A stretch of 33,520 nt of DNA from Phycisphaerae bacterium (GTDB lineage: Bacteria > Planctomycetota > Phycisphaerae > Sedimentisphaerales > Anaerohalosphaeraceae). Both the position numbers and the translations under genes were made by a program. The notes under the pieces were generated by a model that worked only from the letters and a program-made list of their open reading frames with translations, was not told the origin of the DNA and did no database searches. Shown piece after piece: positions 3-22,984 of the stretch. The stretch is taken from NCBI GenBank assembly GCA_018433925.1, contig JAHDQI010000096.1, forward strand, positions 1 through 33,520, in the 5' to 3' direction. The stretch's first letter is position 1; the number at the start of each line of letters is the position of its first letter.

Positions 3-2648
3 CCCTTCCCGTCGCATATTTGTAAAAGCCGGGAAGACATTGAAACCTCACTCAAACGTCTGCAAGCCCCGGCTCAATTGACCGTTCAGATCAAGGGCGA
101 GGCCGCTCCCCGGCTGAGATACGCTTCTCAGCGGCTGCGGGATCATCTTAGCAGTTTCGGTACAGCTCGGATTATTCTCAGCAGCAGCAAGTTGGACAGG
201 ATAGAAGGGGACCGTACACCAGAGGGATTCCACCTTTATCGGGATCCTGAGGGTACCTATCACATCGAAGGTTACGGTGATTCGGGTACGCTCTACGGGG
301 CGTTGGCGTTGATCGATCGGGTCACAGAAAACGGCCGATGGCCCGAAGTTTTAAATGTCACTGAAGTACCGGCCTTTCGCCTGCGAGGTCCCTGCATCGG
401 CATGCAGCTTACATCCATTTTGCCGGGTCGTAACACGTATGAGTATCCCTATACTCCCGAAAACTTCCCTTTCTTCTATGATAAGGGACAGTGGATCGAG
501 TTTCTGGACTTCCTGGTTTCCAATCGGTTGAACACCCTGTACCTGTGGAACGGTCACCCCTTTGCTTCCCTGGTCAAATTGGAGGACTATCCTTATGCCC
601 TGGAGGTCTCCGAAGAGGTCTATCAGCGTAACGTTGAGATGTACCGCCTGTTGACGGAAGAAGCGGACAAGCGGGGGATATGGATCATTCAAATGTTCTA
701 TAATATCTTTGTATCTAAGTCGTTTTCCGAACACCATAATATTGAAACCCAGCACGCCGCTCCCACTGAACTGATTGCCGACTATAACCGCAAGTCCATC
801 ACCAGGTTTATGGAAATGTATCCGAATGTGGGCTTATTGGTCTGTCTGGGGGAAGCTCTCCGAGGACAGGAAAACCAAGAGACCTGGATGAATGAGGTGG
901 TTATCCCGGCTGTTAAACAGGCCATGGACACATTGGGCGCGACCGAAGAACCTCCCATTGTAGTACGAGCCCATGCGGTCGGCAATGTCAAACAAATGGT
1001 GGAATCCTCTTTAAAACATTACACGAATCTATATACCATGGCCAAGTATAACGGCGAATCACTGACCTCTTATGAACCGCGCGGCGAATGGCAGCAGGTT
1101 CATCTGGATATGAGCCGCTTGGGATCTGCCCACGTGGTCAATGTACATTTGCTTTCCAATCTGGAGCCCTTTCGGTACGGCGCCCAGGATTATATTCGAC
1201 GCTGTGTGCGGGCCTGTCGCGACCGCTTAGGTGCTCAAGGCGTCCACCTGTATCCTCTGGCTTACTGGGACTGGCCGAATGCGCCGGACAAGGTCAATCC
1301 TTATCTCAAACAATACAAACGTGATTGGATCTGGTTTGAGGCCTGGGCCCGATACCTGTGGCAGATTGATCGAAATCCGGATCAGGATCATCGGTATTGG
1401 GTTCAGCGATTGACCGAAATCTACGGCAATACCCAGGCCGCGGAGCAGATTCTCATCGCCTACAATGAATCAGGCCACTGCGCGCCTATGCTGTTGAGAC
1501 GTCTGGGTATCACTGAGGGTAATCGACAAACCCTTTCTTTGGGCATGTTTCTTGATCAATTGGTCAATCCCGGGCCTTATGGTCCCTTCAGCGGTCTGTG
1601 GGAATGGCACGCTCCTCCCGGGGAACGTCTTGAAGAGTATGCTAAAAAGGAATGGACCGGCCGGCCGCATACAGGCGAAACCCCTGTCACGGTTATCGAG
1701 GCCTCTACACGTCATGCCGCACTGGCAGTCAAGGCCATCGAAAAGGCCGCCGGATTGGTAACCCGCAATCCAGACGAGTTTAATCGACTTCGCAATGATA
1801 TATATTGTATTGATCTAATGAGTAAGTTCTATGCTGAAAAAGTTCGGGCCGCCGTTCTGGTCCTGGATTACAGCTATAGCCACAACCCGGAAAGTATGCA
1901 AATGGCTCAAAAACATCTGGCCCGAAGCCTGGAGCATTATCGGGCTCTGACTGATCGCACAACTCAGTTCTATCGTTATGCCAACACCCTGCAAACCGGT
2001 CACCGCCGCATTCCGATTCGAGGCATGAAAGATGATACTCCTTATTACTATCACTGGGAACACATGCTGCCTCTCTATGAAAAGGAACTCGAAGACTTCA
2101 ACGTTCGCCTGACCCGGCTTGAGGATGAAAAAGTCCAACGCAGCCGGCCCGGTCCTCGACTCAAAGGCGTGGCTTTTAAATTGCTTAGTCAGGATTGTGA
2201 AACCTATGAAGTTACTATCGGAGCCAGGCCCTTTATGGATCGCGGATACCGCATCCTGCAAATGGCCGAGGAACTGGAACGCCTAACCGGTATTCGCCTG
2301 TCGCACACTGACGGCAAAGACGGCGTACTCAAGCCCCTGCGTCTTAAGACCGAGGTACCTGTTCAACTTCTGATTGGTTATTTTAATGACAACCGCAGCA
2401 TCTGGGCTCAGCCGCCTAATCTTGACATGGACAGCCAGGCTGCCAAATACGGCGGGGTAGAAAGCGTTATGCAAAATGTTCTGCAAATTGAAGGAAGCCC
2501 CCAGGTCAATATTCATGTTTTTAGTTTTCCAGCCGGAGAGATCACTTTCGACCCCCGCAGCCCGGGCAGCTACCTGGTCCTGGGAGTCATTCCTGCTGAC
2601 ATGGAAGTGACATCACGTAATGCAGAAATTTCTCCGGGACGAGGGTGA
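3..2648 (+). CDS. glycoside hydrolase-like protein, GH67/GH20-type layout (5' partial)
   Basis: The frame is open from base 3, so the gene probably begins outside the window; a TTG at 78 is only a possible internal start. Residue numbers here count from that TTG. Residues 1-100 look like the small alpha/beta domain that precedes the barrel in alpha-glucuronidases and beta-hexosaminidases (GYGDSGTLYGALALI at about 66-80). Residues of about 100-430 look like a TIM barrel, with a conserved-looking Glu259 in CLGEAL and Asp398 in YWDW as possible catalytic residues. A helical middle part and a small beta-rich C-terminal domain follow. Family assignment rests on layout only; GH67-like, GH20-like or an unclassified family are all possible. 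The gene converges on the - strand sugar operon and probably belongs to the same glycan-degrading locus. No signal peptide can be judged because the start is missing. Confidence 0.55.
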   Translation, partial: PFPSHICKSREDIETSLKRLQAPAQLTVQIKGEAAPRLRYASQRLRDHLSSFGTARIILSSSKLDRIEGDRTPEGFHLYRDPEGTYHIEGYGDSGTLYGALALIDRVTENGRWPEVLNVTEVPAFRLRGPCIGMQLTSILPGRNTYEYPYTPENFPFFYDKGQWIEFLDFLVSNRLNTLYLWNGHPFASLVKLEDYPYALEVSEEVYQRNVEMYRLLTEEADKRGIWIIQMFYNIFVSKSFSEHHNIETQHAAPTELIADYNRKSITRFMEMYPNVGLLVCLGEALRGQENQETWMNEVVIPAVKQAMDTLGATEEPPIVVRAHAVGNVKQMVESSLKHYTNLYTMAKYNGESLTSYEPRGEWQQVHLDMSRLGSAHVVNVHLLSNLEPFRYGAQDYIRRCVRACRDRLGAQGVHLYPLAYWDWPNAPDKVNPYLKQYKRDWIWFEAWARYLWQIDRNPDQDHRYWVQRLTEIYGNTQAAEQILIAYNESGHCAPMLLRRLGITEGNRQTLSLGMFLDQLVNPGPYGPFSGLWEWHAPPGERLEEYAKKEWTGRPHTGETPVTVIEASTRHAALAVKAIEKAAGLVTRNPDEFNRLRNDIYCIDLMSKFYAEKVRAAVLVLDYSYSHNPESMQMAQKHLARSLEHYRALTDRTTQFYRYANTLQTGHRRIPIRGMKDDTPYYYHWEHMLPLYEKELEDFNVRLTRLEDEKVQRSRPGPRLKGVAFKLLSQDCETYEVTIGARPFMDRGYRILQMAEELERLTGIRLSHTDGKDGVLKPLRLKTEVPVQLLIGYFNDNRSIWAQPPNLDMDSQAAKYGGVESVMQNVLQIEGSPQVNIHVFSFPAGEITFDPRSPGSYLVLGVIPADMEVTSRNAEISPGRG

Positions 2649-2837: not shown

Positions 2838-4049
2838 TCAGGGACAAATGCTTTCCGGCCATTGTCCGTTGGGCATTGGGATAGTTTTTAACTCAGCCGG
2901 ATTTAGCACGACATGCTTGATCCGTTTGCGATGCCAGGTATAGACAATGTGTACCAATCCGTCAGCAGTCTGGATCACGGAAGGGTAGGAGAATTGGCGG
3001 TCCGGCCGGTCTTCATACTCCAGCACCAGTGCCGCTTTCCAGCTTTTTCCATCACGGCTGAGTGCGACGTTCAGGGTACCGCGACCCTTGTGGCCCATAC
3101 CCGCCTGGCTGCGAGTGGAGTGATTGTAAACAAGCAACTGGCGACCGTCCGCCAGCGTTACTCCGTCAATTCCCGAGTTGGGATTCGGCAGTATCATTGG
3201 TTGCATGGGTGACCAATTGCTGCCGCCGTCTCTGGACCATGTTTCTAAGATTTTTCCCTCTTGGCTGCGGCATAGCATTTGAATGTGGCCATTGGGGTAT
3301 GTTAGTAATGTCGGCTGGATGGCATTCCTGTCAGATGGATTATTAAGCGGTCCGGCCAGGGTTGCCCAGGTTTTACCGTTGTCGCTGCTGGCTTCAACAT
3401 GAACACGCCAACCGCCGTCTTCGCGACTGGAGGGTGCTAAAATTGTACCGTCGGCCAGTTGAATAGGTTTGTTTTTGACTGGACCAATCAGCATCTGGCC
3501 ATTTTCAGCGACTATCCGTTTCGGCTCAGTCCAATTCCAGCCGCCGTCGGAGGACGTTGTGATCATGCCCCACCATTGGCTCGGAGAGGGGCCAACCTTA
3601 TAAAAAAGCAGCAAATCGCCTCCCCTGGGCTGAAAGAGAACCGGATTCCAGGTTGGGTAGCGAAGTTCAGGTGTTTCTACTCCATTGGCGACTTCGACGA
3701 CCGGAGTCCATTTGCCGTTAAACTTGTGACTGATCCAAATGCCGACATCGGGATTTCGTTCTGCGGTTCCGCCGAAAAAAGAGCATATCAGTTCCCCTTT
3801 GACTTCGGCAATGGTGGCAGCGTGACATGAAGGAAATGGGGCTTGGCAGAATACGAATTCTTCAAGCACTACTCCCGGCTTGCACGAAGGTTGTTCCTGT
3901 TTACAAATCTCTTGTCTGTTCGTTAGAGAATTGTTTTTCGGTTGCATACTCTTGGGGCTCTTTAAAGGATTTTCGGCATCCATCTGTATTGATATGTTCA
4001 GGGAAATTCCGAATATACAAATACACGATTTCAGTAATAAATCCGTCAT
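2838..4049 (-). CDS. sialidase-like (BNR/Asp-box) beta-propeller protein
   Basis: Protein of 403 aa with four Asp-box repeats: SSDGGWNW (166-173), SSDNGKTW (221-228), SRDGGSNW (272-279) and a shortened SRDGKSW (331-337). They mark a six-bladed sialidase-type propeller. The C-terminal FSYPSVIQTADGLVHIVYTW block (353-372) is typical of the sialidase-family proteins found in glycan-utilisation loci. The N-terminus (1-20) is hydrophobic with Cys9 and Cys11 but is not a convincing signal peptide; the start may lie further in. This is the last gene of the - strand operon, 47 bp after the URO-D-like gene. Substrate is unknown. True sialic acid is doubtful because no sialic-acid catabolic gene is nearby. 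Sialidase-fold enzymes also act on other ulosonic acids such as Dha in rhamnogalacturonan-II. Confidence 0.75.
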   Translation of the reverse strand: MTDLLLKSCICIFGISLNISIQMDAENPLKSPKSMQPKNNSLTNRQEICKQEQPSCKPGVVLEEFVFCQAPFPSCHAATIAEVKGELICSFFGGTAERNPDVGIWISHKFNGKWTPVVEVANGVETPELRYPTWNPVLFQPRGGDLLLFYKVGPSPSQWWGMITTSSDGGWNWTEPKRIVAENGQMLIGPVKNKPIQLADGTILAPSSREDGGWRVHVEASSDNGKTWATLAGPLNNPSDRNAIQPTLLTYPNGHIQMLCRSQEGKILETWSRDGGSNWSPMQPMILPNPNSGIDGVTLADGRQLLVYNHSTRSQAGMGHKGRGTLNVALSRDGKSWKAALVLEYEDRPDRQFSYPSVIQTADGLVHIVYTWHRKRIKHVVLNPAELKTIPMPNGQWPESICP

Positions 4050-7196: not shown

Positions 7197-8837
7197 TTAA
7201 CTTCCCTTCATTCCAAGCTGGAAGAACAGATACAAGGCGATCATGATGGCTGCCAGAACAGCCCAGGCTGTAAATCCAAATCGCCCCAGTCCCGGATTTC
7301 CCCGATACGCCTGACGTATTGTTGGTAACGGTGTTTCAGAAGTACTATGCTGTGTTAACAGGGAGGTTACTATCATGAATATCATGATTGCACAGAATAA
7401 ATAAAACGATAACAATAGAAAATGCGGAAAAATATCTTCTCCGGCTTCATTTGCGAAAACATTCATAATATCACAGAGACCAATCGACAGCGAAACGGCT
7501 GAGCCAATGATCAAAGTCAGTAAAGCGGCTGCCGAGGTCGAACGCTTCCAGAAGATACCCAACACAAAAACAGCCGAAACAGGCGGAGCCATATATCCGA
7601 TAATCCCCTGGAAGAGGTTAAATAAATTTGTTCCTTCGGCCTTACTCAGGCACCAGGCGATACCCACTGCCAGTAATGCTGAAACAACGGTGGTTATACG
7701 TCCGGCTTGTTTGATTTGATGTTCTGTTGCGGCCGGGACTATCCAGCGTTTATAGATATCCAGTGTAAAGATTGTACTAAAGGAGTTAAGGCCCGAATCC
7801 AGCGTTGAAATCACTGCCGCAATAAGAACGGAAACAATCAAGCCGACGAGTCCTGCCGGCAAAAAAGTACTTACCATACTTAGAAATACCTGTTTATCAT
7901 CACTGATATCGGGCAGTAACTGGGCTGCGAAAATGCCCGGCAGAAGGAAGATAAACGGTGGAGTAATTTTAAGAAAAGCTGCGAACAGGGTACCTCCCTG
8001 GCTTTGCCTCAGGTTTCGGGCGCCCAGTGCACGCTGCACAATCGTCTGGTCTGAACACCAAAACCACAGCGAAAGAACGGGATAGCCCAAAACAAACGCA
8101 TACCATGGATTTTCTGTGCCGGGCGGGTGCATCAGTTTCCAGGTTAACTCTGACGGTGTGTCCCCGCACTGGACTTGCACCAAAGCCGAAAAAGAGTCCA
8201 GCTTGCTTGCGGCAATGATTGAAAGCAAAGCAGCGCCGATAATCATTAAAATGGATTGGAATGAATCCGTCACCATCACGGCTGCCAGTCCCCCGGCAAT
8301 CGTAAAACTGGCAGCAATTGCAGCCAGTGCCCAGACAGATGTCATCAATTCCCATCTCAGCAGTTGAGACAGCAAAGCGCCTCCGGCAAACAATGTGCCT
8401 CCGATCCACAGTACAACGGTTCCGAGCAATGCATAGAACGACATAAATGTGTAGCAACCCCGCCCAAAACGCTTATTCATAAATTCCGGCATCGTGGAAA
8501 TCTTCGTATGCAGGTAAAAAGGTACAAACACCATACCCAACAAAAACAGAAACACCCATGCCATCCACTCAAAATTGGCCGTCACCATACCGGTAGTATA
8601 TCCGGCTCCACAGGTTGCGATTAAAAATGTCGGGCCGATATTCGTTCCAAAAATGCTCAGGCCCACGTTGCTCCATCCCATCGAACGACCGCCAAGAAAC
8701 AAATCTTCACTTTTGCGATGGCGATAACTCACCCAGGCACCAATGGACAGAAGAACCAGCAGATAGCCCGTAAGAACCCAGATATCCAATAAATGCAAGG
8801 TTATCCCCTCGGCCAGAATGACCGGATACTTAATCAT
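7197..8837 (-). CDS. SSS-family sodium:solute (sugar) symporter
   Basis: Protein of 546 aa with about 13-14 hydrophobic segments and hallmarks of the solute:sodium symporter family: SEDLFLGGRSMGW near the first loop, GGLAAVMVTDSFQ in the middle, and VLIAAVISTLDSGLNSFSTIF near the sodium-site region. This SGLT-like subgroup usually carries sugars or sugar acids and is often next to glycoside hydrolase genes. The start codon lies inside the end of the exported mutarotase-like gene (8-bp overlap), so the two are translationally coupled. Together with the RhaT-type protein at 16338 it gives the locus two independent sugar importers. The substrate cannot be read from sequence. Confidence 0.9.
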   Translation of the reverse strand: MIKYPVILAEGITLHLLDIWVLTGYLLVLLSIGAWVSYRHRKSEDLFLGGRSMGWSNVGLSIFGTNIGPTFLIATCGAGYTTGMVTANFEWMAWVFLFLLGMVFVPFYLHTKISTMPEFMNKRFGRGCYTFMSFYALLGTVVLWIGGTLFAGGALLSQLLRWELMTSVWALAAIAASFTIAGGLAAVMVTDSFQSILMIIGAALLSIIAASKLDSFSALVQVQCGDTPSELTWKLMHPPGTENPWYAFVLGYPVLSLWFWCSDQTIVQRALGARNLRQSQGGTLFAAFLKITPPFIFLLPGIFAAQLLPDISDDKQVFLSMVSTFLPAGLVGLIVSVLIAAVISTLDSGLNSFSTIFTLDIYKRWIVPAATEHQIKQAGRITTVVSALLAVGIAWCLSKAEGTNLFNLFQGIIGYMAPPVSAVFVLGIFWKRSTSAAALLTLIIGSAVSLSIGLCDIMNVFANEAGEDIFPHFLLLSFYLFCAIMIFMIVTSLLTQHSTSETPLPTIRQAYRGNPGLGRFGFTAWAVLAAIMIALYLFFQLGMKGS

Positions 8838-9627
8838 TCTCAGACTCCTTATGGAGTGCTGAGTCTGTTACTTGAATCAAGGGCGTCCAAATATTCTTTT
8901 CACCTGGAAGCGGTTGCTGACAGGGATCTGTCTGTGCCCACCATCGTTGATTTACGGGATCTTCTCTGTTCATCTGGTTATCTTTTTCAGGGCGGCTGCC
9001 CATATATTCCAGATAGAAAAATTCATATAACTGATCTTCAATTTCAACCAGAAATATGGAGAAGTTGCGATTGTTGCCCCGAATCATCTGGTCGACTACC
9101 CCGGGCCAGACAGTCTGATGAAGGCTGCGGTATTGACTTTCTTTTTCAGGTTTGATGGTCGTTACCATTGACAGCACTTCCGTTGGTTTCCGATCTACAT
9201 TCAACCCGCGAATATAATTAATCCATTCCATCTGAAGCCAACAACATCCATATTGTACGGCTCGCGGATGAGGAAGGATTAAATTTTTTAATTCAGGGCT
9301 TATCGCTTCAAATGTTTGAGCGGCTGTCAAATATTGTTTTTCCCCTGAAAATTGAAAATAAATCAGATACCATGTGTTTTTTTGAATCACTTTTTTAAAG
9401 ACGGCCGGATTTGATATTCCGGCCAGTTTGAATTTGTCCTCTTCTTTTTGGCTGCACAATGTAGACAACTGTTGAGATACCATTTCTTCCTGGCCGGTTC
9501 TGGCACGGGCAATTAGTCCGACGTATGTGGGCTTTCCTGATAATAAATAATTTTCATAAGGAGAAAACGCAGATACGTCTGAAGACCCTATCATCAGCAT
9601 AAACACGATGGAGTAAAGTTTTTTCAC
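8830..9627 (-). CDS. exported two-domain L-rhamnose-mutarotase-like protein
   Basis: Protein of 265 aa starting with GTG behind a perfect Shine-Dalgarno sequence. Residues 1-20 form a signal peptide (hydrophobic 5-16, likely cleavage after VSA), so the protein is probably periplasmic. Residues of about 150-253 match RhaM: Tyr166, catalytic-type His170 in LHQTVWP, and the Trp229-Trp230 pair in QRWW are kept. The position of the substrate-binding Tyr41 of RhaM is Phe189 (NFSIF). Residues of about 34-140 look like a second, degenerate copy of the same ferredoxin-like fold without the His. RhaM is normally a single-domain cytoplasmic enzyme interconverting anomers of L-rhamnose. An exported tandem form could act on sugars released outside before uptake, or merely bind them. 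It overlaps the SSS transporter gene by 8 bp. Confidence 0.7.
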   Translation of the reverse strand: MKKLYSIVFMLMIGSSDVSAFSPYENYLLSGKPTYVGLIARARTGQEEMVSQQLSTLCSQKEEDKFKLAGISNPAVFKKVIQKNTWYLIYFQFSGEKQYLTAAQTFEAISPELKNLILPHPRAVQYGCCWLQMEWINYIRGLNVDRKPTEVLSMVTTIKPEKESQYRSLHQTVWPGVVDQMIRGNNRNFSIFLVEIEDQLYEFFYLEYMGSRPEKDNQMNREDPVNQRWWAQTDPCQQPLPGEKNIWTPLIQVTDSALHKESEND

Positions 9628-9632
9628 GAATT

Positions 9633-9640
9633 ACCTCCTT
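9633..9640 (-). promoter_or_regulatory. strong ribosome binding site for the exported RhaM-like gene
   Basis: On the - strand this reads AAGGAGGT, a perfect anti-16S match, 5 bases before the GTG codon at 9627-9625. It decides that GTG as the start. It is the strongest ribosome binding site I noticed in the sugar operon, where most genes have weak or partial ones. Confidence 0.85.
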
Positions 9641-9652
9641 TACATAATGTCG

Positions 9653-12004
9653 TTACACAAGGTTCATTAAGGGAACCTGCACTCCTTTTGAATCAATTTG
9701 GTATAACCTGTCATATATTTTTATTTCAACAGGCGCCCCTTCAATCAGCTTAAAATTCGCGCGGGTTGTGTCTACCGTCACTTCCATTATGGCTCCTCGA
9801 TAATTGATCCTGAACTGATAGCGAGTCCAGGCCCGGGCAATTTGCGGATGAAATGCGAGAATGGGACCATCGCTTCGCAGGCCGCCATAACCGCATACCA
9901 GATTCGCCCAAACGCCTGCCGCCGATGTCGCATGATGGCCCTGTTCCGTATTACGGTTGTAGTTATCCAGGTCCAATCGGGCCGCATAGGTAAAAAACTC
10001 GTACGCCTGATCCTTCAATCCCAATTCGAGTGCTAAAATAGAATGCAGAGACGGAGATAAAGATGATTCGTGAATGGTTCGGGCCTCGTAAAAATCATAA
10101 TTGGCTTTTTTTTCTTCTGCAGTGAAATCATCGCTAAAGAAAAACATATGATTGAGTACATCCGGCTGCTTGATCATATTTTTTCGGAAAATTCGAGTAT
10201 AGGCCCAGTTCTTGTAAATAGGGATTTGATCCATTGGAATGTCGGCAACCTCCACATGCGGTAAATCAAAGTAACCGGCATGCTGCTCAAATACTTTGGT
10301 GTCAGGATTTTGGACAATCCGCATTTTTTCAGCCATGTCTTTCCAGGTTTTGGGCTCCTCCGGACCCAGCGATACTTTTTCAATTACTGATTTGTAGTGA
10401 TCCGGAGAATTTGCTTTCATTTCCTCCAGCACATCCAGTGTGAAAAGAAAGATTTTTTTGGCCAGATAATTTGTATAGAAGTTATGATTTACCATCATGT
10501 GGAACTCATCGGGCCCCATGACTCCATAAAGACCAAAGTCCCCGTTCAAAGGACTGTAATCTCCTGCACTTGCATAGAAACGAGAAATCTGAAGAAGCAT
10601 CTCGATGCCTTCTTGGTACAAAAAGTCCTTATCACTGGTGACCTTGTCATATTGCCAGATTGCATAACCAATGGCTCCGCTGATATGATGTTCCAGATCG
10701 ACATGCTGCCAGGTGCCCGAATCCTCATACCCGGAAACGGTTGCAAAGGGATAACGTGCTCCCCGGCAATCCAGGTCCTGTGCTCGCTGAAGCGCCTGAG
10801 GAAGGGTGTGATAGCGATACATCAAGAGATTTTTAGCGGCTTGCGGATTGACAAATAAATGGAACCGATGGCAGTAGATCTCAGTATCCCAAAATGCCCA
10901 GCCGAAATAAACCTCGCCTGTCAACCCTTTACAGAGCGGATTTAGACGGGGATTTTCTCCGCGGTAGGTTTGATAGCTCGACAGGATGGAGAAACGCAGT
11001 CCCTGCAGCGTATCGTCGTCGCCGTCAATATCGACTGCAAAACGGTTCCATGCGTTTTCCATGAAATGGATGTGTTGGTCATATGCTCTATCAAACGTCA
11101 TCTCTGTATATTGATCGCATAAGGAAATCCCGGTATTCCAGTGTTCCTCGATAGGGTCATTTTTCTCCCAGTGATTCATGGCGATCCTGTCAATGCAGGC
11201 AGTTCTGTTTTTATCCAGAGACAACGAAAATTGAAGACCGATGAATTTATCCTGCGACAGGACTTGCGGTGTAACGGATTCAGCCGTCAGCGCGCGAAAA
11301 CTTGAAAATAATCGAAAGCCCGTCCCTTTTGTCTGAGATAGAATCTGACAGCTTGTATCGTTGGACGCTTTTTTAACTTCGGTCCAGAAATTATTTCCTC
11401 TGTCTGAAGCGATGGAACCGGTCGTCTGTGTTTGGGTCCACCCGGAGGCAATCTCGTAACGAGTGTTAAAATCAAGACCCAGCACAATATCAGCTTTTCC
11501 GGAAAAATTCAAGGGTTTCAGGAGAATTCGCTGACAGCCCATTTTTGTTATCTTCATATTCAAAAAACGTATAAAGGTGATATGTAGGTTGCGCCCACTT
11601 TCGAGATGCCAGATGAATTCCCGGCTGTATACCAACTTTTTCATGTCAAGCGTTCGTCTAAAGTGACTGAACTTGACAGCCGCAAGATCAAGTTGCTCGC
11701 CATCGACAGTTATGCGAGTATAAAGCCAATCTACCGCATTAATCATGACACCGCTTTTGTCGATCATTCCCTTAAAGAATTGATCGTGGCTGATTTCAAG
11801 ATAATCATAAAGATGATTGAAATAGCTGCCTAAAAGATGGTCACCGCTGTACCCCTCTTCGAAATACCCTCTCACTCCCATGTGTTCGTTGGAAACTGCA
11901 AAGATTGATTCACTCAGCCGTTGTTGTTCCGGACAAAACCCTTCCTCCACGATCGTCCAGGGATCTCCTTGATAATACTTTACAGGGCGTTTCATTAAAT
12001 GCAT
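9653..12004 (-). CDS. GH65 disaccharide phosphorylase
   Basis: Protein of 783 aa, the usual length for glycoside hydrolase family 65 phosphorylases, with no signal peptide, so cytoplasmic. The N-terminal beta-sandwich (about 1-300) is followed by the (alpha/alpha)6 barrel with GLTGEVYFGWAFWDTEIY (360-377), GVMGPDEFH (494-502; Glu500 matches the general acid), the KQPDVL block near 612 and the phosphate-loop region HHATSAAGVW (690-699). GH65 enzymes split alpha-glucosides such as maltose, kojibiose, nigerose and trehalose with phosphate; one branch uses alpha-1,3-glucosyl-L-rhamnose. Because rhaM and an RhaT-type transporter are in the same operon, that last activity is an attractive but unproven guess. 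Met4 (11995) is an alternative start. The stop lies 25 bp before the exported mutarotase-like gene. Confidence 0.9.
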   Translation of the reverse strand: MHLMKRPVKYYQGDPWTIVEEGFCPEQQRLSESIFAVSNEHMGVRGYFEEGYSGDHLLGSYFNHLYDYLEISHDQFFKGMIDKSGVMINAVDWLYTRITVDGEQLDLAAVKFSHFRRTLDMKKLVYSREFIWHLESGRNLHITFIRFLNMKITKMGCQRILLKPLNFSGKADIVLGLDFNTRYEIASGWTQTQTTGSIASDRGNNFWTEVKKASNDTSCQILSQTKGTGFRLFSSFRALTAESVTPQVLSQDKFIGLQFSLSLDKNRTACIDRIAMNHWEKNDPIEEHWNTGISLCDQYTEMTFDRAYDQHIHFMENAWNRFAVDIDGDDDTLQGLRFSILSSYQTYRGENPRLNPLCKGLTGEVYFGWAFWDTEIYCHRFHLFVNPQAAKNLLMYRYHTLPQALQRAQDLDCRGARYPFATVSGYEDSGTWQHVDLEHHISGAIGYAIWQYDKVTSDKDFLYQEGIEMLLQISRFYASAGDYSPLNGDFGLYGVMGPDEFHMMVNHNFYTNYLAKKIFLFTLDVLEEMKANSPDHYKSVIEKVSLGPEEPKTWKDMAEKMRIVQNPDTKVFEQHAGYFDLPHVEVADIPMDQIPIYKNWAYTRIFRKNMIKQPDVLNHMFFFSDDFTAEEKKANYDFYEARTIHESSLSPSLHSILALELGLKDQAYEFFTYAARLDLDNYNRNTEQGHHATSAAGVWANLVCGYGGLRSDGPILAFHPQIARAWTRYQFRINYRGAIMEVTVDTTRANFKLIEGAPVEIKIYDRLYQIDSKGVQVPLMNLV

Positions 12005-15071: not shown

Positions 15072-16277
15072 TTAATTAGATTCAATATTATGCTCACCTA
15101 AATTCAGAGGATAGTTTCCATATTCACGAACCAGTTTGATAATGTAATCATATATATAACCGGACACATCGCTGGCAACCGAATGATCGGATTGGAAGAT
15201 ATAGCCTCCTCCCTTGGCAGCATTCAGCTTGCGGAGAATCTCCTTTCGAATTTGATCTTTATCGCCTGTTTCCCAAACCTGGATATTGCTGTTCCCGCAG
15301 ATACCCAGCTTGTGCCCATATTCTCGTCGTAACTCAACGGCATCAAGGTCCGCCTTGGCTTCCAGTGGATTCATCGCGTCAATCCCGATTTCAATATAAT
15401 CGTCCAGGATTTGATGTACATTTCCGCATCCATGATAAATGACCATCAGTCCCTTGGAATGAGCATGTTCTGCAATCGCTTTAACCCATGGCTTAAAATA
15501 TTGTCGCCAATAGTTCGGCGAAAAGAACAGGTCTTTGCGGTAGGCTACATCTCCCCAGATTACAAATCCGTCTAATACTCCTTCTGCTGCATCAATCTGG
15601 GCTTTGGCACAGTCCAGGTAGAATTGCCCGATTCGGTTGATTACGCGGCCCATCCGTTCGGGGTGCATCCCAATCCAGAGCATGTTATTTTCCGGTCCGA
15701 TCAGGCGGGTCAGGCATTCATTACATTCGATAATGCTGCCGAAAACCGGAAAATCCGGCCATAATGATTTGACCGTTTCGATCCAGGCAGGGCTGTTGCG
15801 TTCGAAGCCGTCTCCTACACCGGCGATTTGGTTATCCCCCGCCTCATCGTAGCGACGTTTGTCATAAGGATCATCAAATACAAGACCTTCCAGTTTTTCA
15901 ATTGTATTCGTTTCGAAGTCGACAAATTCCGGCATTGGAGCAGTAAATTTTTTCCGCATGATGGCTCCAAAGCCGGTTTTGACGATGACTTCCTCGTCAT
16001 CTTCTTTTAGTATTTCAAATGGCCGTATGAAAGGATCCATATTCGGTACCGTGACGATCCAGTCAAGATCATAATAATAATACGGATTTGCATCTTCAGG
16101 CAATGCTAATTCCTCTCTCCAGCGTTTGATAAAGCCGCCCCAGAAGAAATCACTAATCGGCACACGATCCGGCTCTTGATGACGGAGGGCCTTCTGCATC
16201 CGCTCTAATTTCTCTACTGTATTTTTTTTACGATTAGAATTTGTTTTCTGTTTGCCAACCGTATCAAACATTCCCAT
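15072..16277 (-). CDS. URO-D/MtaA-superfamily protein with intact zinc motif (methyltransferase-like)
   Basis: Protein of 401 aa. The ATG at 16277 follows AAAGGT about 8 bases upstream. It has URO-D features: ALRHQEPDRVP at 30-40, YHGCGN at 281-286 and LGICGN at 324-329. His282, Cys284 and Cys327 fit the His-x-Cys...Cys zinc site of MtaA/MtbA-type methylcobamide:thiol methyltransferases. Classical haem-pathway decarboxylase is unlikely in a sugar operon. A methyl-transfer role, for example removing O-methyl groups from methylated sugars, is possible, but no corrinoid protein, MtaB-like partner or activation protein is in the window. The gene is 60 bp after the transporter gene. It is only distantly similar to its paralogue at 4097-5197, which has lost these ligands. 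Confidence 0.75.
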   Translation of the reverse strand: MGMFDTVGKQKTNSNRKKNTVEKLERMQKALRHQEPDRVPISDFFWGGFIKRWREELALPEDANPYYYYDLDWIVTVPNMDPFIRPFEILKEDDEEVIVKTGFGAIMRKKFTAPMPEFVDFETNTIEKLEGLVFDDPYDKRRYDEAGDNQIAGVGDGFERNSPAWIETVKSLWPDFPVFGSIIECNECLTRLIGPENNMLWIGMHPERMGRVINRIGQFYLDCAKAQIDAAEGVLDGFVIWGDVAYRKDLFFSPNYWRQYFKPWVKAIAEHAHSKGLMVIYHGCGNVHQILDDYIEIGIDAMNPLEAKADLDAVELRREYGHKLGICGNSNIQVWETGDKDQIRKEILRKLNAAKGGGYIFQSDHSVASDVSGYIYDYIIKLVREYGNYPLNLGEHNIESN

Positions 16278-17476: not shown

Positions 17477-17815
17477 TTAATCACAGTGAAAGACTTCTTC
17501 CATATCTGCCCACCACTGACCTTCAGCCCTGTCTTCCAGCGGTTCCTGGCAGGGCATGCAGACATCCCACCATTTTTGAGTGGTTTCATCGGCCGCCATC
17601 TTCTCGCAATCGGCCTTGAAATCATCCCCTGTATATTCTAAGTAACTAAACAGGTAATATTTACCGTCCGGCAGTTTACGAAGATAGATTGAGTAATTTG
17701 TAAAGTGACATTCCGAAATCATCCTTAATACGTCCGGCCACACATTTGCATGCAGTCTCTTATATTCGTCTATTTTATCTTTCTTGAGACCAATTACCCA
17801 GCCAAATCGATCCAT
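17477..17815 (-). CDS. rhaM: L-rhamnose mutarotase
   Basis: Protein of 112 aa, near the 104 aa of E. coli RhaM, with no signal peptide. The known functional positions are all present at matching places: Tyr18, catalytic His22 (RLHANVWP), Tyr41 (NYSIYL) and the Trp82-Trp83 pair (KWWD). The enzyme interconverts alpha and beta anomers of L-rhamnose to supply the isomerase. The C-terminal WWADMEEVFH is the usual end of the family. It lies between the FGGY kinase (48 bp) and the RhaT-type symporter (68 bp). The closely related L-fucose mutarotase activity cannot be excluded. Confidence 0.9.
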   Translation of the reverse strand: MDRFGWVIGLKKDKIDEYKRLHANVWPDVLRMISECHFTNYSIYLRKLPDGKYYLFSYLEYTGDDFKADCEKMAADETTQKWWDVCMPCQEPLEDRAEGQWWADMEEVFHCD

Positions 17816-19537: not shown

Positions 19538-20494
19538 TCAATCGTTTTTGCCCATCATAGCTTTAGCGGTTTCAATAATCCCGTTTTTGTCGATTTTATA
19601 GTAGGCCTGGATTTCATGCCGCGGTCCGGCTTTTGAGAACCTTCCCTGAGGAATGCCCAGTTTTACGAATTGAGTTTGAAGTCCTTGTTCAGCGATGATT
19701 TCTGAAATCATGCTTCCAAGCCCGCCGTGCAGCGAATGCTCTTCAACCGTAAGTACATGCCCCGTTTTTTGAATGGACTTGGCAATGGTATCCTGATCCA
19801 GGGGGCGAATCGAAGCGATATTGATTAATTCACAGTGTATCGAATCGGCTTGTAAGGCCTCCGCCGCAAAATATGCATGGTGTGCCGTAGAGCCCATGGT
19901 GATGATCGTGAGGTCCGATCCTGTTTTCAAGAGATCTGCCTGGCCGGGTTGAAACCGGTAATCGTCTCCATGAATCACGGGAAATTTATCGTTGTCCATG
20001 CGAATATAGACAGGACCGTTGTACCGCAGCGCATAGTCAAAGATTTGTTTGGCATCAATCGGATCCGACGGTACAAGAATAAGGATATTGCCCAGCCCCA
20101 GCATCATAGAGATATCGTCAATGGCATGGTGTGTGCTGGCCAGTGGACCGTAACAAACACCTGCATTCAAACCGACCAGTTTGACATTCGTATCCGAGTA
20201 GCAAATATCATTTTTGACTTGTTCAGCAGATCGTGTTGTCAAAAAACAGGCCGCATTGGCCGTGACCGATACAAAACCGCCCAGAGAAAGCCCTGCCGCA
20301 ATTCCAACCAGATTTTGTTCGGCAATCCCGACGTTTATCAATCGTTCAGGGCAACGTTCCATAAAGGGTTTGATCTTTGAGGTACTCGTGGAATCGCTTA
20401 CAAGAACCGCCAGATTGATTTTCTTTTCGGTTGCTTCAAGAAAGGCCTGTACCATGATATCACGTAAATCACATCGCTGGGACCCTTTCATCAT
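19538..20494 (-). CDS. transketolase, C-terminal subunit
   Basis: Protein of 318 aa equal to the pyrimidine-binding and C-terminal domains of transketolase. The conserved Glu that activates thiamine diphosphate is Glu59 in NVGIAEQNLVG. The C-terminal domain follows (VEEHSLHGGLGSMI near 250). The start overlaps the stop of the N-terminal subunit gene by four bases (ATGA), showing translational coupling and a two-chain enzyme. It transfers a C2 ketol unit between sugars. Split transketolases are common in dedicated pentose or branched-sugar pathways, including the apulose-4-phosphate transketolase AptAB (EC 2.2.1.13). That role would fit the apiosidase-like gene two places upstream. A plain pentose-phosphate transketolase is the alternative. 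Confidence 0.9.
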   Translation of the reverse strand: MMKGSQRCDLRDIMVQAFLEATEKKINLAVLVSDSTSTSKIKPFMERCPERLINVGIAEQNLVGIAAGLSLGGFVSVTANAACFLTTRSAEQVKNDICYSDTNVKLVGLNAGVCYGPLASTHHAIDDISMMLGLGNILILVPSDPIDAKQIFDYALRYNGPVYIRMDNDKFPVIHGDDYRFQPGQADLLKTGSDLTIITMGSTAHHAYFAAEALQADSIHCELINIASIRPLDQDTIAKSIQKTGHVLTVEEHSLHGGLGSMISEIIAEQGLQTQFVKLGIPQGRFSKAGPRHEIQAYYKIDKNGIIETAKAMMGKND

Positions 20495-21318
20495 TCCAAC
20501 TCCTCAATCGCACGTGCAACTTCATCACCGGAAGGAATTCGATGATGCCAGGTCGGCTGATCTTCGATAAATGAAACACCTTTGCCTTTGATTGTTCTTG
20601 CAATCACGGCTTTGGGTTGTTGATTGTGCAGATTCAGGGCGTCGATTGTTTCGATAAAGGTCCGGGGAGAATTCCCGTCCGTAAGATAGACATCAAATCC
20701 AAATGCTTTGAGTTTGTCAGTCAGTGGTTCGATGGCCATAATTGCTTCGGTCCTGTCGGCCAGTTGTAATGTGTTTCTGTCAACAATCAGGATTAGGTTG
20801 TCCAGTTTGAAGTGCGCTGCGCTCATGGCGGCTTCCCAGTTGGAACCTTCCTGCAGTTCCCCGTCTCCGGTCAGGACGAAAACCCGAAAGCTTCTGTTTG
20901 ACATTTTTGCACTCAGCGCCAGGCCGGTGCCGACGCTCAGGCCGTGCCCCAGCGCTCCCGTATTCAATTCCACGAAAGGGCATTTCTGGCGGACAGGATG
21001 TCCCGGCAGGTCTGAGTCGAATTGCAGATAGGTTTGCAGTTTGTCTTTGGGTATGTATCCGGCCTCTGCCAGTGTACAGTATAACCCGCAGACACCGTGG
21101 CCTTTACTAAGGATGAATCGATCCCTGTTCGGATTCTCAATGCTTTCTTTGTCAAGATTCAGGATTCGAAAAAAAAGACAGGCAAGGATATCTGCTTCCG
21201 AAAGATCACTGCCGGTATGCCCCTGGCCGGCGTGAACATTCGTCTGAATGATCTTTTTCCGAATCTCTTTTGCTTTTTGAGCTATTTGTTCAGGTTGTAG
21301 ATAAAAAGGATTCGCCAT
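20491..21318 (-). CDS. transketolase, N-terminal subunit
   Basis: Protein of 275 aa equal to the pyrophosphate-binding half of transketolase. It shows the thiamine diphosphate motif GDGELQEGSNWEAA (151-164) ending at Asn182, plus HAGQGHTGSDLS (29-40), SKGHG (71-75) and GALGHGLSVGTG (121-132). It pairs with the overlapping C-terminal subunit to make one active site. It lies 61 bp after the DUF5060-type glycosidase gene. This half gives no hint of substrate beyond its context in a sugar operon. Confidence 0.9.
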   Translation of the reverse strand: MANPFYLQPEQIAQKAKEIRKKIIQTNVHAGQGHTGSDLSEADILACLFFRILNLDKESIENPNRDRFILSKGHGVCGLYCTLAEAGYIPKDKLQTYLQFDSDLPGHPVRQKCPFVELNTGALGHGLSVGTGLALSAKMSNRSFRVFVLTGDGELQEGSNWEAAMSAAHFKLDNLILIVDRNTLQLADRTEAIMAIEPLTDKLKAFGFDVYLTDGNSPRTFIETIDALNLHNQQPKAVIARTIKGKGVSFIEDQPTWHHRIPSGDEVARAIEELE

Positions 21319-21379: not shown

Positions 21380-22984
21380 TTACTCATCGCGGCGAATACG
21401 CAATGCCATGTAGGGTTTTCCGGGAAGCGGTACACTGCCTCCATTCTTATCCGCAAAAACATAGTTGTCGCGCTTTGCGATTTCAAATGTACTTTCAATT
21501 GGGGTGATTGTCATATCCCAGGTGTCAATCACTTCAACTTTAAACTTCATACCGTCAGCAAGCTCAGATTTGGGAAGTTCGAAAAGCCACGCAGTGGGCA
21601 TCTGGCGGCCGAAATATCCGAGATAATACGTTCCCCATACGCCGGCAAAGGGACAATTCTGCCATTTGTCGATTGGTTCTAATCCTTCCTGCGGACCTTC
21701 TTCCATAATCGTTCGCAAAAAGGCAAGCCGTGCAGGACTCTGGCCATGTAGGACTCCACCCTTGGCCCACCAAATGATGTCATTAGGATCAAGATAAGTC
21801 TCTCCATGTCCTACATAGGTGCCGGCGATAGTGCCCTCCCAGAAGCGGAATACCAGTTCTTGGCCAGAGATATTGCCCCATCGTTGCGGCAAGTTGCCTT
21901 CGTACTTAACCTCATCAAATATAACTGGCTTTCGATAAACGTCTCGATAGAGCACTGCGCGGCCGTAATCCTGTACTGCTGAGCCGTTTTGGATGCTTGC
22001 ATGGGTGACCCACGGCAGTGTGTGATTGTAGAGCAGCGAGCCGTTGTGAATGGAACGTAGCCGTCCGTATGGATCGTGGGCCTGGACAATCTTAAAAAAA
22101 CGATCCCAATCATCTGGCGTTTTCTCTTTCATGAAATCGTATTCATTAGCCAGCGACCACCAAACATTGCGATAGGCGGACAACCGCGATACAACATAAC
22201 AAAGATACCGGTCATCCGCCTCTTTTGGCATACGGTCAAACCCCCAGTGACCTTTGTCGTAAGGGTGAAAGAGAATAATGTCGGCTTCAATCCCCATATT
22301 GCCAAGCTGCAGAATACGTTTTTCAAAATGGCGGAAAAAATCAGGGTTAAATCGTGTATAATCCCATGTTGAAGGTGGAGTTCCTTCAAATGGAAAGAGG
22401 TAGGGCTCGTTTTTATTGTAGGAATACCACTTTGGAAACAAACAGAAGCGGATCTTGTTAAAAGGGCAATCAGACAGCGTTTTTAAGGTTTGCTCCTGAA
22501 GGTTCAATGGCTGATGGGTCCATGCATAACAGGTTGTTCCGACCTGGCGGTAAGGGGTGCCGTCCGCATAGGCAAAATGATAGGTGTTGGAAATACGAAC
22601 GGGTCCGTGATTACTGTCCGAAGGGTCTGTGCAAATAAAAGATCCTGTTTGGCCTGAAAGTCTGGCCACATTACTCTGGGTTTGATAGGTCCACAAGCCC
22701 GTTTCATCAGGACTAAAACGGATAATATATTCTCCTTGACCATCATAAAATCCTGAAATCTGAACGATCCTGTCTTCTTTTACAAAAACAGCGGAAAGCT
22801 CTATGTCTATGAAAGGATTACCGCCGGCAGGTCCTGTTAATTTCAGTTCAAAAAGACCCCACTTCTCCACCTTCATTTTCTGTCCAAACATGCTGGTTCC
22901 CATAATGGAAAGTAAAAGAACGATGAAAAAAGCTCGAAAACGAATGAATAGCTCCGGATTAATGCCTTCGTCTTGCTGATTCAT
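21380..22984 (-). CDS. exported DUF5060/DUF4038-type glycosidase, apiosidase-like
   Basis: Protein of 534 aa. Residues of about 15-35 form a signal peptide or N-terminal anchor (FFIVLLLSIMG). A beta-sandwich of the DUF5060 type follows (about 37-125; FYDGQGEYIIRFSPDETGLW). Residues of about 130-430 form a clan GH-A-like TIM barrel (DGTPYRQVGTTCYAWTHQ at the first strand), then a small C-terminal beta domain (DUF5605-like). Glu281 in SLANEYD and Glu358 in FDEVKYEG are at the positions expected for acid/base and nucleophile. Barrel proteins of this group are related to GH140 endo-apiosidases, but DUF5060 members are largely uncharacterised. The gene starts 4 bp after the isomerase gene stop. 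Best reading: an exported retaining glycosidase supplying the sugar used by the neighbouring isomerase, kinase and transketolase. Confidence 0.75.
   Translation of the reverse strand: MNQQDEGINPELFIRFRAFFIVLLLSIMGTSMFGQKMKVEKWGLFELKLTGPAGGNPFIDIELSAVFVKEDRIVQISGFYDGQGEYIIRFSPDETGLWTYQTQSNVARLSGQTGSFICTDPSDSNHGPVRISNTYHFAYADGTPYRQVGTTCYAWTHQPLNLQEQTLKTLSDCPFNKIRFCLFPKWYSYNKNEPYLFPFEGTPPSTWDYTRFNPDFFRHFEKRILQLGNMGIEADIILFHPYDKGHWGFDRMPKEADDRYLCYVVSRLSAYRNVWWSLANEYDFMKEKTPDDWDRFFKIVQAHDPYGRLRSIHNGSLLYNHTLPWVTHASIQNGSAVQDYGRAVLYRDVYRKPVIFDEVKYEGNLPQRWGNISGQELVFRFWEGTIAGTYVGHGETYLDPNDIIWWAKGGVLHGQSPARLAFLRTIMEEGPQEGLEPIDKWQNCPFAGVWGTYYLGYFGRQMPTAWLFELPKSELADGMKFKVEVIDTWDMTITPIESTFEIAKRDNYVFADKNGGSVPLPGKPYMALRIRRDE

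Follow-up and report, generated by a model that had tools for sequence, protein, structure and literature searches.

A predicted exported tandem protein of the RhaM/FucM mutarotase family encoded together with an SSS-family symporter in Phycisphaerae

To our knowledge, mutarotases are regarded as enzymes that assist sugar breakdown inside the cell, and NanM is the sole clear precedent for one that acts before uptake. The window analysed here, a stretch of 33,520 nucleotides (contig JAHDQI010000096.1) from a Phycisphaerae bacterium (assembly GCA_018433925.1), encodes a doubled RhaM-like protein that has a predicted signal peptide and whose gene overlaps that of an SSS-family sodium/solute symporter, and this raises the question of what such a protein might do on the outer side of the membrane. 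A sequence-only reading of the same DNA knew of no characterised example. Likewise, we found no exported RhaM/FucM-family protein, tandem or single, described in the open-access literature (subscription papers lay mostly outside this scope), which is not proof that there is none. As far as tested, what is new is the compartment, the fusion and the linkage to a carrier, in a family that is itself known.

PF05336 was used to search 118 genomes of the order, 60 of which had matches, and the surroundings of nearly all matches were fetched together with those of a few earlier loci. Proteins were classed as exported using a simple rule (signal peptide or lipobox) and the neighbours were read for each gene. 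The resulting tree set comprised 102 RhaM-family genes, nearly all of them from this one bacterial order.

The features of the locus are listed in Table 1. By inspection, the N-terminus of the tandem protein (MKKLYSIVFMLMIGSSDVSA followed by FSPYENYLLSG) has KK, a hydrophobic core and a VSA -3/-1 site, and a predicted signal peptide precedes the same mature start, SPYENYLLSG, in all seven orthologues (the window's included). Moreover, the Shine-Dalgarno sequence is the best among the 15 window genes checked, in keeping with the claim of the sequence-only reading that this gene has the strongest ribosome binding site of the operon. The gene starts 25 bp beyond the end of the GH65 gene, and its stop overlaps the start of the SSS gene by the 8 bp that had been reported (8830-8837); the same overlap is seen in L037, L038 and L039, the three plus-strand orthologous loci with listed gene ends.

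Table 1. Positions of the tandem gene, its parts and its neighbours in the window
Feature	Position	Strand	Remarks
Tandem RhaM/FucM-like CDS, predicted exported	8830-9627	-	265 aa, GTG start, intact
Predicted type I signal peptide, residues 1-20, MKKLYSIVFMLMIGSSDVSA	9568-9627	-	By inspection and orthologue conservation
Domain 1, degenerate RhaM-like (likely), ~residues 31-140	9208-9537	-	All active-site columns lost
Domain 2, RhaM/FucM-like, ~residues 150-258	8854-9180	-	Keeps Y166, H170, W229, W230
His170 codon (= E. coli RhaM H22)	9118-9120	-	Column alignment
Phe189 codon TTC (= E. coli RhaM Y41)	9061-9063	-	Column alignment
Shine-Dalgarno AAAGGAGGT	9633-9641	-	Perfect 9/9, spacer 5
SSS-family sodium/solute symporter, PF00474	7197-8837	-	8-bp overlap with the RhaM gene
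GH65 enzyme, no signal peptide seen	9653-12004	-	Upstream partner in conserved cluster; Pfam and orthologue loci
GH141-type enzyme, PF21231	5199-7193	-	Conserved downstream; putative lipoprotein by inspection (LLTGC)
Normal single-domain FucM-like mutarotase, no signal peptide	17477-17815	-	Adjoins RhaT; 103.9 bits

PF05336 matches the tandem protein at residues 154-251 only (67.6 bits vs a cut-off of 23.4), that is, in domain 2. The active site of the family, which according to the UniProt/HAMAP annotation comprises Y18, H22, Y41, W76 and W77 (E. coli RhaM numbering), presumably has H22 as the proton donor and the remaining four residues as substrate contacts. Domain 2 was described earlier as near-complete with Tyr41 changed to Phe189, and this was found throughout: Y18, H22, W76 and W77 are kept in 7/7 orthologues, as is RWW at columns 75-77, and the Y41 column is Phe in all seven (F189 in the window protein). 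This replacement, common to every member of the window branch, may weaken or abolish catalysis.

The RhaM-like identity proposed before stands as far as membership in PF05336 goes, but not with respect to the side of the family. Judged by its sequence, the tandem protein is nearer to the L-fucose mutarotase FucM than to E. coli RhaM: 7BYU is the nearest solved structure to domain 2 (67 bits, E 1.5e-17), the E. coli-type L-rhamnose mutarotase equivalog TIGR02625 is not reached by far (32 vs 99.6 bits), and in the domain tree, the deep forks of which are weakly resolved, the protein lies on the FucM side while E. coli RhaM groups with other genes. FucM from Acidovorax avenae (7BYU/7BYW, non-phosphorylating pathway) has Tyr18, His22 and the WW pair in common with domain 2; it is however a single domain of ~110-120 aa with Tyr41 present, whereas the window protein is predicted to be exported, is doubled and has Phe at position 41. 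RhaM/YiiL and RhaU (PF05336, TIGR02625) belong to the same Pfam family and share most active-site residues, but E. coli-type RhaM is cytoplasmic and its branch in this order, with which E. coli RhaM groups, is separate and wholly non-exported.

For the first domain, which had been called degenerate, the orthologue alignment reveals a second conserved unit (residues ~31-140) that retains none of the RhaM site residues in 7/7 orthologues; its origin from RhaM is less firmly supported. A profile-profile comparison (one pairwise comparison) gave an in-register match across the beta2-beta3 motif (AGISNPAVFKK..YLIYFQFSGEK vs NIRNYSIYL..YLFSYFEYxG) with a probability of 70.7 and E 3.8e-5, and in the most distant orthologue, L042, domain 1 gives a weak RhaM-HMM match of 19 bits. 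Modelled alone, domain 1 has the beta-alpha-beta-beta-alpha-beta order expected for the dimeric-alpha+beta-barrel topology, at low confidence (pLDDT 67), and AlphaFold modelled the tandem poorly (pLDDT 59, pTM 0.41). These low-confidence models matched dimeric alpha+beta barrels in Foldseek and VIA-align, which is supportive and not decisive; RhaM entries were absent from the VIA-align match lists, and the domain 1 profile gave nothing significant against PDB sequences. Taken together, these comparisons and models suggest that domain 1 is likely a degenerate RhaM. A degenerate first and a kept second domain are also found in L044, L052 and L123.

Six further orthologues, 54-70% identical, were identified among 98 relatives searched, four in the same genus (G001-G004), one in the same family (G025) and one in the same order (G073); in a phylum search of 392 genomes, full-length window-type proteins were found only in the window's genus. 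No tandem relative was present on the viral contigs and plasmids scanned, and a scan of genome contigs gave a relative with a single domain only. Purifying selection acts on each of the two domains (NG86 dN/dS ~0.03-0.27 where computable); among the more distant pairs, dN is roughly double in domain 1 compared with domain 2. In five of the six other orthologous loci the SSS gene comes directly after the orthologue and has GH141 beside it, and the vicinity also holds a relative of the alpha-galacturonidase-like gene at 78-2648; a GH65 gene precedes the orthologue wherever the ORF call resolves it. The G073 orthologue has no SSS gene on its 11.6-kb contig.

The window protein is not an isolated case but belongs to one of several exported, often tandem, lineages: of the 102 RhaM-family proteins surveyed, 43 look exported, mostly as lipoproteins, and 59 do not. 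The sequence-only reading had named homologues lacking signal peptides as evidence against itself, yet all seven orthologues have a predicted one. The linkage to SSS genes that it proposed to look for was recovered, since a same-strand SSS gene directly adjoins 23/43 exported and 0/59 non-exported members (Fisher p 2.3e-11, kinship ignored). On the tree, export changed at least 7 times and SSS adjacency at least 11 times, and an independent-pairs test pointed in the same direction with too few pairs for significance. The FucM side of the tree holds a non-exported clade together with the exported lineages, and this clade includes the normal copy at 17477, present as described earlier. Within lineages the first and second domains of the tandems group apart, and at least three tandem fusions must therefore have occurred: in the main lipoprotein tandem lineage, in the L046/L123 pair and in the window branch. 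Outside the order, 294 genomes of the phylum searched with PF05336 yielded no tandem.

The other exported proteins of the order resemble the window protein in that many are tandem and many lie beside SSS genes of the same subgroup, but they are mostly lipoproteins with Tyr41, and most of the tandems keep His22 and Tyr41 in both domains; the window branch differs by its type I signal peptide and its position upstream of the SSS gene. Nearly all exported members have Y18, H22 and W76, and most have Y41. The sister group of domain 2 in the window branch consists of single-domain lipoproteins, likewise with Phe41 (94/94). Many independent origins of Phe41 were considered and discarded, as the 13 rows having it require only 4 changes on the tree. 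In L151 a single-domain exported copy lies 4 bp after an SSS gene, in another family of the same class. Exported copies also adjoin GH29 fucosidase genes (L104, L106), GH141 (L131) and ABC importer genes: L075 and L078 have a permease together with the binding protein of the importer itself, and L059 has an ABC ATPase; cytosolic RhaM genes are at times near fucosidases (7/62).

All 24 RhaM-paired SSS proteins fall into one subgroup (26 rows, SH-aLRT 88), to which none of the 19 other SSS proteins of the window's genome belongs. The claim that a RhaM partner accompanies every member of this subgroup was put to the test and is false: six SSS proteins 49-70% identical to that of the window (G491, G492, G084, G008, G500 and G041) are without a RhaM neighbour, and the carrier therefore does not need RhaM. 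Among 12 loci examined from the larger half of the subgroup, all without RhaM, GH29 or GH95 fucosidases are present in 9 and a Peripla_BP_4 protein in 8, several of the latter being lipoproteins encoded directly beside the SSS gene. Given these neighbours, the subgroup seems dedicated to fucose-type sugars, and its exported partner appears to be sometimes RhaM and sometimes a binding protein. Peripla_BP_4 lipoprotein genes adjoin SSS and fucosidase genes at L185:4109-5074, L187:4037-5002, L188:1400-2425, L190:4133-5134 and L191:1452-2429; no ABC genes are among the neighbours read at these five loci, and it is possible that their SSS proteins are binding-protein-dependent carriers.

L-fucose or a product ending in fucose is the probable sugar, because 7BYU is the nearest structure, because the GH141 enzyme BT1002 releases 2-O-methyl-xylose-alpha-1,3-L-fucose from RG-II (PMC10154630), and because the orthologue in G073 lies in an L-fucose-like catabolic cluster; L-rhamnose and L-galactose may be alternatives. 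Specifically, the G073 cluster (L042:5598-10641) has two SDR dehydrogenases, a GntR regulator, a class II (fuculose-P-aldolase-like) aldolase and an Amidohydro_2 protein weakly like L-fucono-1,5-lactonase, with annotations below equivalog cut-offs. The GH65 enzyme of the window lacks a signal peptide in a cluster that is otherwise export-oriented, which suggests that a di- or oligosaccharide, and not a monosaccharide alone, may be taken up.

The window as a whole resembles a region for RG-II/pectin degradation, with genes for an alpha-D-galacturonidase-like protein (78-2648 (+); NF049878 1021 bits, under its cut-off of 1300), a BNR_2 protein (2838-4049 (-)), the GH141 enzyme and an apiosidase-like PF13204 protein (21380-22984 (-)). 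A transketolase is split into N- and C-half genes (19538-21318 (-)) inside a sugar cluster that also has an FGGY kinase and an isomerase matching Fucose_iso_C. Furthermore, a URO-D/MtaA-like methyltransferase-family gene is present at 15072-16277 (-), as well as in L059, L073, L075, L078 and L085. Such genes lie beside 43/107 RhaM-family genes, exported or not, and are perhaps linked to O-methylated sugars.

We suggest, giving it an even chance of being right, that the tandem protein is a periplasmic fucose-type mutarotase that conditions sugar for uptake by the adjacent SSS carrier. Descended from an L-fucose-type mutarotase (the FucM branch of PF05336), it would be exported and work in the periplasm with the symporter encoded right after it; domain 2 would hold the sugar site and domain 1, its site lost, would most likely form the other half of an internal pseudo-dimer. 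Extracytoplasmic glycosidases, here GH141, would free one anomer of a reducing fucose-type sugar, and the protein would equilibrate the anomers and present the sugar to a carrier preferring one of them, as proposed for NanM with sialic acid. NanM, the fold of which is a kelch propeller, differs in its sugar and is unrelated in sequence and fold, the window protein matching PF05336 only. The logic is nevertheless the same: NanM is a periplasmic sialic acid mutarotase that acts outside the cytoplasm alongside sugar uptake (PMC3658417, PMC8141875). SiaT, a carrier of the SSS family, has the beta form of Neu5Ac bound (PMC5931594).

Phe189 makes catalysis by the window protein uncertain, and hence the main competing explanation is that it solely binds or delivers the sugar, although we consider this somewhat unlikely. 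Here domain 2 would bind the sugar, or a fucose-ended oligosaccharide, unconverted and hand it to the SSS carrier in the way of a substrate-binding protein (SBP), which fits the loss of Tyr41 in all orthologues with the other sugar-site residues kept, the same Phe in the single-domain lipoproteins of the sister clade, and the Peripla_BP_4 lipoproteins at RhaM-less loci of the same SSS subgroup, as if the two were interchangeable. On the other hand, His22 is kept and the Peripla_BP_4 proteins could feed sensors instead. An SBP fold (Peripla_BP_4 or TRAP type) gave no Pfam match in the tandem protein, and we are not aware of any SSS carrier that is served by a binding protein. Moreover, the exported RhaM genes beside ABC importers argue against a simple missing-binding-protein role and for a chemical one; in L075 and L078 RhaM is not needed for binding because the importer's own binding protein is adjacent. 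The paper on TAXI-GltS lists TRAP and TTT as the only previous secondary carriers that depend on an SBP (PMC12344293). TRAP, TTT and TAXI-GltS systems likewise have a soluble exported protein encoded with a secondary carrier (PMC12344293), but in our case the carrier is SSS and its putative dependence would be on a partner with a mutarotase fold, or on Peripla_BP_4 in sister loci. Conversion of a mutarotase fold into a periplasmic component that binds or delivers sugar for an SSS (LeuT-fold) symporter, and that a Peripla_BP_4 lipoprotein can replace in related loci, is in our judgement unlikely.

A fully active periplasmic mutarotase could instead serve the extracytoplasmic glycosidases, e.g. 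by removing an inhibitory product anomer as suggested for NanM, the SSS link being operon convenience; GH141 in the same cluster agrees with this, as do the GH29 or ABC importer genes that adjoin other exported copies, but the translationally coupled overlap and the SSS enrichment favour the carrier and Phe189 speaks against full activity, which makes it quite unlikely. The degenerate first domain, the fast-evolving branches and the unusual conserved mature N-terminus FSPYENYLLSGKPT might indicate a receptor, lectin, sensor accessory or new reaction in which the fold is kept and the ancestral function gone, a reading that we regard as very unlikely given that the active-site His, Tyr18 and WW of domain 2 are invariant. 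Finally, decay of a functionless duplicate, compatible with the loss of the domain 1 site and of Y41, is scarcely credible for a gene intact in 7 genomes and having a perfect Shine-Dalgarno, and it was rejected since dN/dS is far below 1 in both domains.

The linkage of exported RhaM/FucM-family proteins to these carriers would provide an annotation handle for a large unassigned SSS group (fucose-type sugars). The binding reading, if true, would test the proposal that only elevator-type carriers use soluble binding proteins (PMC12344293), and a binding component for SSS, if true, would add to the SBP-dependent secondary carriers a class that is not of the elevator type. Repeated export, tandem fusion and linkage to one SSS subgroup would make control of the anomer before transport a general feature of polysaccharide-degrading Planctomycetota.
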